From positions 1 through 61,777 of the IMG/VR virus record IMGVR_UViG_3300027779_002131: DNA of 61,777 nucleotides; one strand, given 5' to 3'. This DNA is from a virus. Numbering within the stretch: position 1 is the first letter of the stretch; each line of letters begins with the position of its first letter. Shown here piece by piece: positions 32,022 to 38,045 of this stretch. The translations under genes were made by a program, and so were the position numbers. Below the pieces are notes generated by a model. The model was not told the origin of the DNA and ran no database searches. It saw nothing but the letters and a program-made list of their open reading frames with translations.

Positions 32022-33578
32022 ATGGCAAGATACTTAGTGAGCATAAACGCCGCAGATGATACCGCGGCTCAGAGTGCTATTACAACCGCAGGTGCCTCAG
32101 TCGAAGCAACGTTAGGATTTACCTTAACATACGAGATTGAAGCCACTGAAGCACAGAAAGATGCTATCTCTGGTCTAACCGCTAGTCAGTTAGCAACAGA
32201 AACAGTTTCCGCCACTGTACAAGCAGGGGCAACATTTTCTAGAACACATTTGGACACTATTGTTCATTCATCTGGAAATAACGCCTGGAATCCAGCAAGA
32301 ACTGGAACAGGGAAATTTGTCTACTTAGTGGACACAGGTATTAATAACCTACACAACGAGTTCGTAGGTGGTACAATACAAAATTTATGGTCAGCATTTG
32401 CAGATGATGATGATGTATCAACTTACGGTGATGCTGGAGGTCACGGAACTGCTGTTGCTTCAATGATTATTGGAACAAACATTGGTAGTGCCAAAGATGC
32501 ATATTTACAGAACGTTAAACTGTTTAATACAAACGGTGGTAATGTAACAGTTGGTGAAATTATAAATTCATTAAGTGCATGTTTAGTTCATCATAAAGCA
32601 AATACTCAAACAGATGTTAAAGCAGTATGCTTACCTTGGACTATTCCAGCTAACGCATTCGTTGATGCTAAAATATTAGAAATGAACGCTTCTAATATGG
32701 TTGTTGTAGCCGCGGCAGGTAACGATGGGGTCGATGTAAATACTAAGTCACCAGCAGGCGTTAACGAGATTATAACAGTAGGTTCATTCAACTCGGACGA
32801 GCAAGTAACATCATTTACTAACGCACCTCATAGTAGTTCAAACAGTTTTGTTAACTACGGTGCTGAACTTGATATATTTGCATTAGGAGTAGGGATTGAT
32901 ATAGCAGATAAAGACAATGTATCGAACTACTTAACAGGAACTGGTACAAGTCTATCAGCAGGTTTAGTTGCAGGCGTTGTTACACATTATGTTCAACGAG
33001 ATCCTGCATTAACATCAAGTCAAATTAAAGAACAAATGTTAGCTTCAGGTCACGCAACAGGTATATTTAACTTAACATTTGATGACTCAGATGCAAGTAT
33101 TGATTATTCTTCTGTTTATAAATCAGCACTTACAACTAAGAACGTTGACGCTAGAGTATTAACAACAGTAACATCAGGTAGAATTGTTAATGTTAAACAT
33201 GGCGTGGCGGCAAGCACACTTGACTTAGGATTAAACGCATCAGCAACAGACGTTAAGATACTAGACTTTGCTCCGTTACCACCTTGGGTAACAATCGACA
33301 TAGCAACAGGTATTATAACTATTGATACAACTGATGCTAGTACATGTCCTTCCTCAAGAGCTCCAGGTATTTACTTGTTTGCTATAAGAGGTAGTGTAGT
33401 AGAAAGTGGTGGTTCTAATAAAGCAACAATGGTAGAAGAGTTCTCAATTGGATTATACACAACTAACGTTAGTGAATTAGACATCGATGGTGATCCAAGT
33501 TCATTCTATTACGATACAGATGATTCATCGTATGACGAAGTTGTTAACTATACTTCAGCATTGTCTTCCAAACCGTAA
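32022..33578 (+). CDS. Subtilisin-like serine protease (S8) with prodomain
   Basis: The 518-residue protein has a prodomain-like N-terminus (MARYLVSINAADD to about residue 68), then the catalytic triad of S8 proteases: Asp in YLVDTGINNLHN near 103, His in GGHGTAVASMI near 140, and Ser in GTGTSLSAGLVAG near 309; the oxyanion Asn region is VVVAAAGNDG. Residues 370-518 form a beta-rich C-terminal domain. No signal peptide is seen, so it could be a virion-bound protease, perhaps maturing tail or capsid proteins or cutting surface proteins. Followed by a strong terminator. Confidence 0.9.
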   Translation: MARYLVSINAADDTAAQSAITTAGASVEATLGFTLTYEIEATEAQKDAISGLTASQLATETVSATVQAGATFSRTHLDTIVHSSGNNAWNPARTGTGKFVYLVDTGINNLHNEFVGGTIQNLWSAFADDDDVSTYGDAGGHGTAVASMIIGTNIGSAKDAYLQNVKLFNTNGGNVTVGEIINSLSACLVHHKANTQTDVKAVCLPWTIPANAFVDAKILEMNASNMVVVAAAGNDGVDVNTKSPAGVNEIITVGSFNSDEQVTSFTNAPHSSSNSFVNYGAELDIFALGVGIDIADKDNVSNYLTGTGTSLSAGLVAGVVTHYVQRDPALTSSQIKEQMLASGHATGIFNLTFDDSDASIDYSSVYKSALTTKNVDARVLTTVTSGRIVNVKHGVAASTLDLGLNASATDVKILDFAPLPPWVTIDIATGIITIDTTDASTCPSSRAPGIYLFAIRGSVVESGGSNKATMVEEFSIGLYTTNVSELDIDGDPSSFYYDTDDSSYDEVVNYTSALSSKP

Positions 33579-34673: not shown

Positions 34674-34681
34674 GATAAATA
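34674..34681 (+). promoter_or_regulatory. Late promoter GATAAATA for the haem/copper cassette
   Basis: Immediately after the stop of the preceding gene; leaves a leader of about 77 bases before 34764. Confidence 0.6.
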
Positions 34682-34763: not shown

Positions 34764-36074
34764 ATGTACAAGTATATAGCCGTGGCTCTTTTAGCCACTG
34801 TGTCTGCATCAGCGTGGGCGACAGATTATGTCACAGGCGTTGCTGATATTATTAATAACAATTGTGTAGTATGTCATAGAGCAGGTGGCATAGGACCAAT
34901 GAGTTTTGAAACGTATGACCAAGTTAGACCATGGGCGCCACTAATGGCTATTAAAGTAATGAAAAGAGAAATGCCACCTTATGCGTATGATCACGGTGTT
35001 GGTATACAAAAGTTACAAGGCGACTGGCGCCTATCCCAAGAAGATATTGATACTTTTGTTGAATGGGTAGACACTGGATCAATGTATGGCAATACAGAAA
35101 TTGTAGTACAGCCTGTAGTATTTCCAAATGATAATGAATGGAGTTTTGCACAGGACTTCGGTGAACCTGACCTTATAATTGCATCAACTCCTATAGATAT
35201 TCCTGCCGAAGGGGCGGATCTTTGGCATAAACATTATGTGCCTGCCGGCAACGAAGTTCCTAGATGTATTAAAGCAGTTCAAGTTAAGCCACGTGGAGAT
35301 GCTAAGGCCGTAGTGCATCACGCTAATAGTTCTGTATTCTTAACAAACGAAGGAACTGGAGAGTTAGAACGTTATGGACAGTTAACTGAATATGCTATGG
35401 GCAAGTGGGGTGAGATTCCAGGCGATGGTGTGTGCCGTACACTTCCAGCAGACTCACAAATTCTCTGGGACATTCATATGTATCCAGGAGGGGTTGGAGC
35501 AACAGCACAAGGACTAGCAGTTAAAGATAATATAGTAGAGATTGGACTATGGTTCCATGAAGTAGGATATGAGGACAAGAGTTACAATCAAGACTTAGCA
35601 CTATACCCTTTGCGAGATGGTTATGAGAATGGTCACTTAATTATACCTCCTAATGGTTATGCAATGACACAAGGGTTTAAGTCTTTTGACCATCCAGTGC
35701 GTATAGACAGTTTCCAACCACACGGACACTTGCGGATGAATGCCGCCAGCTTAGAGATATTTTATCCTGAAAGCGGACGTACAGAAAAGATAGGACAAGT
35801 ATCTAACTGGAGTGCAACTTGGCACCACAGCCATTTGTTTGATACTTCAGTAGCACCACTAGTTCCTGCAGGTGCAGTACTAGTTATGAAACAATGGTAT
35901 GACAATACTGCTGATAATCCAAACAACCCTGATTCAGATATGTGGGTAGTAGATGGCAGTAGGACTGGAGATGAGATGTCTCATTTTTGGATAGCCGTTA
36001 CACACTTAGATGATAAAGGCTATAATAAATTAAAGGAAGAACGAAATGAAAAAGTTAATATTGCTAGTAAGTAG
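34764..36074 (+). CDS. Secreted cytochrome c / copper type II monooxygenase-like protein A
   Basis: The product is 436 residues. A Sec signal peptide (MYKYIAVALLATVSASAWA) leads to a periplasmic protein. A haem c motif CVVCH stands near residue 34 in a small cytochrome c domain. The rest resembles copper type II ascorbate-dependent monooxygenases (PHM/DBH fold): VVHHANSS near 185, WDIHMYPGG near 237, PHGHLRMNA near 320 and DEMSHFW near 403, matching the HH, H, HxH and Met copper ligands. It would need host cytochrome c maturation and copper loading. Substrate unknown. The ATG at 34764 follows AAAGGAAAAA. Overlaps the next gene by 29 bases. Confidence 0.8.
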   Translation: MYKYIAVALLATVSASAWATDYVTGVADIINNNCVVCHRAGGIGPMSFETYDQVRPWAPLMAIKVMKREMPPYAYDHGVGIQKLQGDWRLSQEDIDTFVEWVDTGSMYGNTEIVVQPVVFPNDNEWSFAQDFGEPDLIIASTPIDIPAEGADLWHKHYVPAGNEVPRCIKAVQVKPRGDAKAVVHHANSSVFLTNEGTGELERYGQLTEYAMGKWGEIPGDGVCRTLPADSQILWDIHMYPGGVGATAQGLAVKDNIVEIGLWFHEVGYEDKSYNQDLALYPLRDGYENGHLIIPPNGYAMTQGFKSFDHPVRIDSFQPHGHLRMNAASLEIFYPESGRTEKIGQVSNWSATWHHSHLFDTSVAPLVPAGAVLVMKQWYDNTADNPNNPDSDMWVVDGSRTGDEMSHFWIAVTHLDDKGYNKLKEERNEKVNIASK

Positions 36075-37284
36075 TTTAATAACGTCTTTTGCTAGTGCTC
36101 ATGATGATATAGATATAGACTACGCTGAAAATGTAGCACCTATATTTGTAGAACAATGTCAGGCTTGTCACAGAGAAAATGGTATAGGACCATGGGCAAT
36201 GACTGATTATAGAATGCTACAAGCATTCGCTCCTGCAATCAAAGAAGCTATTGAGTCAAGGCGAATGCCGCCAGGACAGATAGATCCTAAGTATGTAGAT
36301 CGCATTATAAATCATAGGACATTAAGTCATACAGAAATGGAAACTATTGTAAAGTGGATTGATGCAGGAACTCCTGTAGAAGGTAATAGAGATCCGCTAA
36401 CAGAAACAGTATACTCAACTTCAGCGTGGGTACATGGTGAACCCGATATGATCATTGATGTTCCGGCGCAAGAGATCCCAGCAATTGGAAGTCTTGGCCC
36501 TAATGCAATACCTTATCGTTACCTTGCTGTAGACTCAGGACTAACAGAAGATCGTTGGTTGCGTGGCTCAGAGTTTCTACCTTCGGAGCCAACTGTTATG
36601 CATCACATGTTAAATTCAATTAGTGTTCCTGGACAGCGAAATGGTAACATCCTTGGTACACAAGGCGGTGGCCAAGAAGAAATGAACTATGCAGGTATTA
36701 GTGCGTATGTCCCAGGAGGAACACCTGACTTTTATGATGAGAACACTGGTGGTTTACTACGAGCAGGTAGTACTATAAACTTACAGTTACACTACACACC
36801 AGATGGTACTGCAAGAACAGACAATGCGAGGATTGGATTATACTTTCATGATGAGGGTGTAGTACCACAAGAAAGAATGGCAGGAGATTGTGCTTGTATA
36901 TTTCCTAACACTTGGACACCAATTCCGCCATACGATCCTAACTTTGTGCAGACAGCAGAAGTTGTACTAAAGAAGGATGTCAACTTGCATACATTCTTGC
37001 CACACATGCATTTCCGTGGAAAGAGTATGAAAGCAACAGCATACTACCCAGATGGAGAAGTAGAGGAGTTAATTAATATTCCTAACTATGAATATGCTTG
37101 GCAACTTTCGTATACGTGGAGAGAGCCTAAGTACTTGCCTGAAGGAACTCGGTTGTTTGTAGAAGGAGCATTTGATAATTCTGCAGAAAATAAGATGAAT
37201 CCTGATCCAAGCAGAGAAGTACCGTGGGGACAAATGTCAGAGGATGAAATGTTCTTTGGTGCATTTACTTGGAAAAATATTTAA
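36046..37284 (+). CDS. Secreted cytochrome c / copper type II monooxygenase-like protein B
   Basis: This is a tandem paralogue of the upstream gene, 412 residues, with signal peptide (MKKLILLVSSLITSFASA). The haem motif CQACH is near residue 38 followed by the shared GIGPWAM. Copper ligand motifs are more canonical here: TVMHHMLNS near 186, NLQLHYTPDG near 249, FLPHMHFRGKSMKA near 320 and EDEMFFGAF near 402. The spacing of the four motifs is almost the same as in protein A. The pair may work as a heterodimer or relay. The start lies within the 3' end of gene A with an AAGGAAGAACGA ribosome site. Confidence 0.85.
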   Translation: MKKLILLVSSLITSFASAHDDIDIDYAENVAPIFVEQCQACHRENGIGPWAMTDYRMLQAFAPAIKEAIESRRMPPGQIDPKYVDRIINHRTLSHTEMETIVKWIDAGTPVEGNRDPLTETVYSTSAWVHGEPDMIIDVPAQEIPAIGSLGPNAIPYRYLAVDSGLTEDRWLRGSEFLPSEPTVMHHMLNSISVPGQRNGNILGTQGGGQEEMNYAGISAYVPGGTPDFYDENTGGLLRAGSTINLQLHYTPDGTARTDNARIGLYFHDEGVVPQERMAGDCACIFPNTWTPIPPYDPNFVQTAEVVLKKDVNLHTFLPHMHFRGKSMKATAYYPDGEVEELINIPNYEYAWQLSYTWREPKYLPEGTRLFVEGAFDNSAENKMNPDPSREVPWGQMSEDEMFFGAFTWKNI

Positions 37285-37295
37285 GGAGACATAAT

Positions 37296-37385
37296 ATGTT
37301 GCAAATAATTACAGCAGTCAGTTGGGCAATAATAGTAACATACGTTGCAGTAAAATTGCCGTTTCTAATTATAATGCTTGTGTAA
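37296..37385 (+). CDS. 29-residue membrane peptide
   Basis: Begins MLQIITAVSWAIIVTYVAVK and is a single hydrophobic helix. An AAGGAGAC ribosome site stands at good spacing, right after gene B, which supports real translation. Function unknown; could anchor or assist the upstream enzymes. Confidence 0.5.
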   Translation: MLQIITAVSWAIIVTYVAVKLPFLIIMLV

Positions 37386-37397
37386 GAGGAAGTAGTA

Positions 37398-37568
37398 ATG
37401 AGAATAATCGGTATCCCTAAAGTGATAATCGATCTGGCATTTGAGTTATTCACTAGTGTGCTTATAGTGTTTCTATGTTTTATAATTGTATCTTGCGTTA
37501 TAGTATTAATTATAAATGTATACGACGATTATCGCACACTATGGAAAAATAGGAAAAGAAGAAAATGA
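37398..37568 (+). CDS. Small membrane protein with basic tail
   Basis: The 56-residue frame has a long hydrophobic segment (FTSVLIVFLCFIIVSCVIVL) and ends in a basic tail (WKNRKRRK). A GAGGAAGTAG sequence precedes the ATG. It overlaps the next gene (ATGA). Could be part of the envelope cassette or an inner-membrane spanin-like protein. Confidence 0.5.
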   Translation: MRIIGIPKVIIDLAFELFTSVLIVFLCFIIVSCVIVLIINVYDDYRTLWKNRKRRK

Positions 37569-37681
37569 TAGTCCAGGGCTATGTGTTTATGGGCATTCTG
37601 GTATTTATTAACATTGCATGTTATGTAATGATTGATGCGTATTTCGAAGGTCATCCAGCCTTTACAGATGATGAAACATAA
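37565..37681 (+). CDS. 38-residue membrane peptide
   Basis: MIVQGYVFMGILVFINIACYV is one hydrophobic helix followed by a short acidic end. Both ends overlap neighbours, typical of coupled small genes. Function unknown. Confidence 0.45.
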   Translation: MIVQGYVFMGILVFINIACYVMIDAYFEGHPAFTDDET

Positions 37682-37829
37682 ACACTTTGCTGTTACATGT
37701 CTATTGTTATTAACTCTAATAATGTGTAGTACTGTTGATAAAGATAGTCAATACTCTTTTACTGAATATCATTTCGAAGATACTATTCCAGAAGAAAGAT
37801 GTACAGATGCAACTATTATTTGTCTCTAA
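37668..37829 (+). CDS. Small exported or membrane-anchored protein
   Basis: The 53-residue frame MMKHKHFAVTCLLLLTLIMC starts with a signal-like hydrophobic stretch ending at a cysteine, but the residues before it do not match a strict lipobox. Two more cysteines are in the tail (RCTDATIICL). It overlaps the previous gene. Start 37668 chosen over 37632 to leave a proper signal. Confidence 0.5.
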   Translation: MMKHKHFAVTCLLLLTLIMCSTVDKDSQYSFTEYHFEDTIPEERCTDATIICL

Positions 37830-37856
37830 AAATATAGTTCGAAAGGAGGACACACA

Positions 37857-38045
37857 ATGATTAAAATAACTACATTAGTATTAATATTACTATTAACAGG
37901 ATGTAATAGCACATTTACATTTCGCTTTGCAACGAGCGACTCTCAATTTGATTACATGCCAGATCCATTAACGTGGGATAGAAATATACGAGATTGTAGA
38001 AGTGAGCCACAATGTAATGCGGCAGATTTGTTTAATAGATTTTAA
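37857..38045 (+). CDS. Small lipoprotein
   Basis: The 62-residue protein MIKITTLVLILLLTGCNSTF has a clear lipobox (LLTGC) for lipidation. The mature part has two cysteines (RDCRSEPQCNA). A strong AAAGGAGGA ribosome site precedes the ATG. Could belong to the haem/copper cassette or be an outer-membrane spanin. Converges with the PAAR gene with a four-base overlap. Confidence 0.75.
   Translation: MIKITTLVLILLLTGCNSTFTFRFATSDSQFDYMPDPLTWDRNIRDCRSEPQCNAADLFNRF

Follow-up and report, generated by a model that had tools for sequence, protein, structure and literature searches.

The window analysed here is a whole IMG/VR virus record (IMGVR_UViG_3300027779_002131; 61,777 bases), and its subject is a pair of adjoining genes, called A and B below. 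Judging from sequence and structural models, each encodes an exported fusion of a class I-type cytochrome c domain with a dicopper oxygenase core resembling that of PHM and DBH. The reading that we favour, with a confidence slightly above even, is that A and B are late auxiliary metabolic genes (AMGs) for an O2-dependent oxidation in the periplasm of the host. The two genes, the promoter-like motif in front of them and sites recognised in their products are located as follows.

34674..34681, + strand: late-promoter-like motif GATAAATA (consensus NATAAATA), 82–90 nt upstream of gene A
34764..36074, + strand: gene A, predicted exported cytochrome c–PHM/DBH-like copper oxygenase of 436 amino acids (alignment; AlphaFold2 model; non-synonymous divergence, dN, well below synonymous divergence, dS)
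34764..34823, + strand: signal peptide of A, approximately residues 1–20, recognised by eye (charged start, hydrophobic core, AxA-type cleavage site)
34863..34877, + strand: CxxCH haem c site of A (CVVCH, C34–H38), invariant in 30/30 sequences of the joint alignment
35316..35321, + strand: HH 185/186 of A, candidate CuH-type ligands, invariant in the viral A set and the joint alignment
35721..35729, + strand: HxH 320–322 of A, candidate CuM-type ligands, invariant in viral A and at least 90% conserved in the joint alignment
36046..37284, + strand: gene B, predicted exported cytochrome c–PHM/DBH-like copper oxygenase of 412 amino acids, without the redoxin domain that cellular orthologues have at the N-terminus
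36157..36171, + strand: CxxCH haem c site of B (CQACH, C38–H42), invariant in the viral B set and the joint alignment

Genes A and B run in the same direction with an overlap of 29 bp, and their products are 30% identical. Both proteins begin with a signal peptide, for which cleavage was placed by eye at ...SASAWA/TDY in A and at ...TSFASA/HDD in B, and both contain a single CxxCH, as can be read directly and as the preliminary description of this region had stated. That description had also put four copper-ligand motifs near residues 185, 240, 320 and 403 and regarded the active sites as intact. Candidate ligands are indeed found close to those positions (HH 185/186, H238, H320/H322 and M405 in A; HH 186/187, H249, H320/H322 and M402 in B) and the predicted ligand sets appear complete: in both proteins six His/Met residues follow the PHM/DBH order HH, H, HxH, M, and it is from this order, not from superposition, that their equivalence to PHM residues is taken. 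No variation is seen at the haem site or the candidate copper ligands among 11 viral A and 9 viral B proteins picked for diversity. When 30 viral and cellular A and B proteins were aligned jointly, the CxxCH, the HH, the third His and the last Met were invariant and the HxH was at least 90% conserved; as judged from the alignment, this pattern is not due to chance. A Met 32 positions further on from the haem His, M70 in A and M74 in B, is likewise invariant (30/30) and would be the distal haem ligand. The CxxCH, this putative ligand and the export signal are together the sequence features of a class I c-type cytochrome.

AlphaFold2 models were built from alignments of the window and fetched-locus sequences and reached pLDDT 83 and pTM 0.80 for A, and pLDDT 73 and pTM 0.67 for B. 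In Foldseek comparisons with the PDB the approximately 30 best matches were all PHM or DBH for either model, the top match of A being the DBH structure 4zel (E = 2.6e-11) and B matching PHM at E = 1.1e-10. Both models display the two-domain beta-sandwich fold of PHM and DBH, albeit with moderate TM-scores (~0.45 by query, ~0.6 by target), which agrees with the original view of the pair as copper monooxygenase-like.

The occurrence of such genes in a virus record could stem from the joining of a phage contig with bacterial sequence, or from host DNA in decay that is carried along by chance, and a few IMG/VR entries (e.g. L080) do look bacterial. However, L081, a separate record that may or may not derive from an unrelated sample, shows only 6 mismatches to the window over the 21,236 bp that span the region (99.97% identity over 21 kb), and the A-B order is repeated in many relatives. 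Misassembly, which had been named as a possible source of error, is therefore very unlikely. Scans of IMG/VR, limited by pattern so that the counts are lower bounds, found A in at least 249 and B in at least 118 viral stretches. Among 154 fetched viral loci, 99 have both genes, and in a further 32, with 3 kb or more of downstream sequence visible, A stands without B; B without A is confined to contig ends and was never seen where upstream sequence is visible. Three long records (101, 119 and 230 kb) possess A and nowhere contain B. At least 32 viral loci with A either lost B or never acquired it, and we propose that A is the core part of the system and B an optional partner. In one locus (L032:11184-12426) the viral B is apparently frameshifted, giving two overlapping pieces.

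The pair is found in several phage lineages, among them T4-like phages, where it stands beside the major capsid gene, and PolA/primase phages, where it stands beside NrdAB. Its neighbours include scaffold, major head protein and UvsW helicase (L101), a single-strand binding protein (L116), and PolA, primase-helicase and NrdAB (L057 and L099), and structural proteins are also among the phage genes nearby, so that the location on phage genomes first described is borne out by the relatives. In L101, the 3,086 bases that separate the major capsid gene from the following gene hold A and B as an island, whereas in the same slot a sister phage, L254, whose capsid protein is 92% identical to that of L101, has 801 bases containing a small lipoprotein gene only; the site after the capsid gene is a cargo slot. 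In every pair compared, dN was several-fold below dS; A and B are under purifying selection. These are host-derived genes on true phage genomes, maintained by purifying selection, as expected of AMGs, which would in addition change host metabolism during infection. The separate near-identical record, the repeated phage contexts, the purifying selection and the virus-only clades described below refute an artefact, the probability of which we consider practically nil.

The motif ahead of A, GATAAATA, is a form of NATAAATA, which is documented as the late promoter motif of marine T4-like phages (PMC2984593). Upstream of 59 genes of the window, NATAAATA occurs 14 times in sense and 3 times in antisense orientation (~1.8 expected), and it stands before 26 of 65 distinct viral A genes compared with 4.6 expected. 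The exact T4 motif TATAAATA is not above chance in the window; enrichment is confined to the degenerate NATAAATA in positions upstream of genes. Late expression of A is thus well supported as a prediction, and the late promoter initially reported is supported as a late-type one.

A genome scan located relatives of A with 63–72% identity in gammaproteobacteria, for the most part in records of Pseudohongiella, the 'SAR86 cluster' and Pseudomonadales metagenome-assembled genomes (MAGs). The direct homologues of B in Pseudohongiellaceae are 48–53% identical. At E ≤ 1e-150, a match was present in 28 of 59 genomes in the family of a Pseudohongiella record and, among 274 genomes of the class, in the centre genome itself only. 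Each of five hosts checked has 19–36 members of the family. Cellular A genes are arranged in tandem arrays of one to five, and the neighbours of the cellular genes (an MFS transporter, a secreted protein of unknown family and a cupin) indicate no substrate. In a tree of 67 A proteins, obtained by a quick method with Shimodaira–Hasegawa-like approximate likelihood-ratio (SH-aLRT) support only, there are two viral clades, of which one is large (support 98), each at its own position among the bacterial proteins; therefore, viral A was likely acquired from bacteria at least twice. The viral B proteins form a single clade (support 100), which the split viral form described below joins at 98, next to cellular B, and this would correspond to a single derivation from a Pseudohongiellaceae-type lineage. 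Since A and B each have a cellular lineage of their own (up to 72% identity for A, up to 53% for B), the trees and identities place them as old, separate paralogous lineages of the host, and the tandem duplication within the phage that had been put forward in the preliminary description is rejected. The A of the window (34764-36074) has an unusually long branch in the tree (0.57 versus a median of 0.14), yet all its ligands are kept. Two MAG-binned contigs, L210 (PBPT01000016.1, 'Neomarinimicrobiota') and L220 (DQKQ01000288.1, 'Flavobacteriales'), were rejected as donors; both carry phage genes and look like misbinned phage.

The direct homologues of A and B are uncharacterised cytochrome c / redoxin / PHM-like proteins of Pseudohongiellaceae. 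Cellular B proteins, mostly of 574–608 amino acids, consist of an AhpC/TSA-like redoxin domain, a cytochrome c and then a PHM-like part with all ligands. Five viral loci (L034, L047, L059, L062 and L079) have B split in two, as a redoxin-cytochrome open reading frame (ORF) and a PHM-like ORF, whereas in the window phage and most others B keeps the cytochrome and the PHM-like part and the redoxin is lost. This history bears on a role in detoxification or redox poise, in which A and B would use up O2 or reactive species or sequester copper, and so protect late infection without any specific oxygenase substrate. The combination of predicted haem and copper sites in one protein and the redoxin domain of cellular B would suit such a role, but that domain is missing from the B of the window phage and both full PHM-type ligand sets are strictly kept, beyond the need of simple metal holding. 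We consider it unlikely. Beside bacterial A arrays a divergent B-like gene was noticed (L157:6388-8109, L159:6630-8381, L185:6647-8164, L189 and L215, minus strand); its product has lost both HxH ligands (R-M-N instead), has kept the haem site, the HH, the third His and the last Met, and is perhaps a one-copper electron carrier or a pseudoenzyme. The cellular B orthologue has as neighbours, in most of five genomes (L234-L238), an inositol-monophosphatase-like gene and a FAD-oxidase/SDR/UbiA/GtrA set that resembles decaprenyl-phosphoryl arabinose synthesis.

PHM and DBH receive single electrons from ascorbate at CuH, activate O2 at CuM and hydroxylate a C-H bond; in animals they are biosynthetic, being the copper oxygenases that finish hormones. 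A and B resemble them in fold (Foldseek E values of 1e-10 to 3e-11) and in the order of ligands, and differ from them in being only ~15% identical, in having a cytochrome c fused at the N-terminus, in being bacterial and phage proteins and, probably, in being independent of ascorbate. A biosynthetic or modifying role, in which the enzymes would act as PHM does on peptides and finish a peptide or a secondary metabolite rather than serve catabolism, would be consistent with the PHM fold and with the function of the animal enzymes. However, no precursor peptide or biosynthetic genes were recognised beside A and B in the phages and the neighbours differ in each phage lineage, and such a role appears highly doubtful.

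For the metabolic role that we favour, the following course of events is proposed. The Sec and cytochrome c maturation machinery of the host would mature A and B in the periplasm, the phage being reliant on the host for haem attachment. The fused cytochrome domain would then draw electrons from the respiratory chain and pass them to the CuH site, replacing ascorbate in its job in the animal enzymes, and the CuM site would use O2 to hydroxylate a small substrate. By making extra enzyme late, the phage would allow an oxidation pathway of the host to keep feeding the cell during virion production, while the host genome is shut down.

Several points weigh against this proposal. Besides the moderate TM-scores given above, B scores 16.4 bits against Pfam PF03712 (Cu2_monoox_C), below the curated cut-off of 23; PF01082 is not matched; the best E among 22 relatives is 0.0013; and the cytochrome c family PF00034 gives 16.6–20.4 bits against a cut-off of 21.3. 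Sequence searches of the PDB with single proteins or a profile returned no convincing chain and no PHM, which was reached by fold alone. The proteins are therefore labelled 'PHM-like' and not assigned to a curated family. Haem and copper content and activity are predictions; the likely hosts, Pseudohongiellaceae or close relatives, are suggested by gene ancestry only; and a metabolic benefit to infection is argued by analogy.

The analogy is with copper monooxygenase subunit genes already reported on phages: pmoC, described as most active late in infection (PMC7674155), and amoC (PMC8115048). For both, too, it has been proposed that they keep an oxidation step going in the infected host. As with A and B, these are host-derived parts of a copper monooxygenase on lytic phage genomes; unlike A and B, they encode membrane subunits of a larger complex, whereas A and B would be exported as soluble proteins, and each of them has a complete predicted active site together with an electron-transfer domain of its own. 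A phage copper monooxygenase therefore has precedent as a role, while the kind of enzyme, its self-contained architecture, its repeated capture and the link to the host appear to be new. No PHROGs family was matched by A or B at E ≤ 1, no record of either was found in INPHARED annotated phage genomes at E ≤ 1e-3, and no report of phage PHM-like proteins was found in the open-access literature; records very close to the window may have been outside these searches. The pair had been called odd for a lytic phage, which holds for cultured phages and not for uncultured marine ones, where the family is common in spite of its absence from the annotated genomes searched. A broader proposal, which we rate as evenly balanced, is that these genes form a widespread new AMG class: several marine phage lineages would independently have taken from Pseudohongiellaceae haem c-dicopper oxygenases that are self-sufficient, remodelled their domain make-up and used them for periplasmic O2-dependent oxidation late in infection. 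A fusion of cytochrome c to a PHM-like dicopper oxygenase would be a new kind of enzyme for lytic phages, and Pseudohongiellaceae would be indicated as hosts for many orphan marine phages. It would also follow that a large uncharacterised oxidase family, with up to ~36 copies per host genome, is important enough for at least two viral captures, and its substrate becomes a clear, testable question.

Downstream of B five small ORFs follow.

37296..37385, + strand: tiny ORF 1, 29 amino acids, hydrophobic (reading frame)
37398..37568, + strand: tiny ORF 2, 56 amino acids, predicted membrane protein, present in L081 (near-identical) and in one further viral locus, L045
37565..37681, + strand: tiny ORF 3, 38 amino acids, hydrophobic (reading frame)
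37671..37829, + strand: tiny ORF 4, 52 amino acids, lipobox LIMC, seen in near-identical contigs
37857..38045, + strand: small lipoprotein, 62 amino acids, lipobox LTGC, conserved NxxxCR-x4-C-x4-LF, a phage family with 46 fetched records

The preliminary description had listed these as five tiny membrane or lipoprotein genes. All are real reading frames; conservation as a gene was demonstrated for the last one, the lipoprotein, alone. Its C-R-x4-C block is invariant, and it adjoins A in many of the 46 fetched records. In an independent scan, approximately 20 of 30 independent lipoprotein loci were without A within the visible DNA, often in the same capsid-side slot. The lipoprotein is therefore rejected as an obligate partner of A and is a fellow passenger rather than a proven partner. 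These data bear on the function first suggested for the pair, modification of the envelope or superinfection exclusion: periplasmic oxygenases made late would alter a component of the outer membrane by hydroxylation or cross-linking, and other phages would then be unable to adsorb or to get their DNA into the cell, the lipoprotein acting as partner. The export signals, the late promoter and a conserved phage lipoprotein that often lies beside A and can occupy the same slot are in keeping with this idea. However, the lipoprotein does without A in those ~20 loci, no receptor or envelope gene is consistently linked to A or B, and the cellular kin occur in large sets of paralogues, some in tandem arrays, which looks catabolic. 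The cellular abundance and paralogy of the family therefore favour metabolism over an envelope role, which we regard as worth entertaining though on the unlikely side.

The C-R-x4-C lipoprotein was also seen in T4-like phages without A (L254:3001-3183, L246:2974-3159, L251 and L264), where it follows the major capsid gene directly or comes after genes of gp46/47 type. A weak PHROG match to an o-spanin was considered an unlikely indication of its function: a related phage contig (L210) has the lipoprotein and a separate Rz/Rz1-like pair. Elsewhere in the window, a subtilisin-like protease (Peptidase_S8, E = 5e-23) is encoded upstream of A (32022-33578) with a NATAAATA motif of its own, and genes that by sequence belong to Fe-S cluster assembly (IscU-like and NifS/IscS-like) are carried by the phage at 43-2073.

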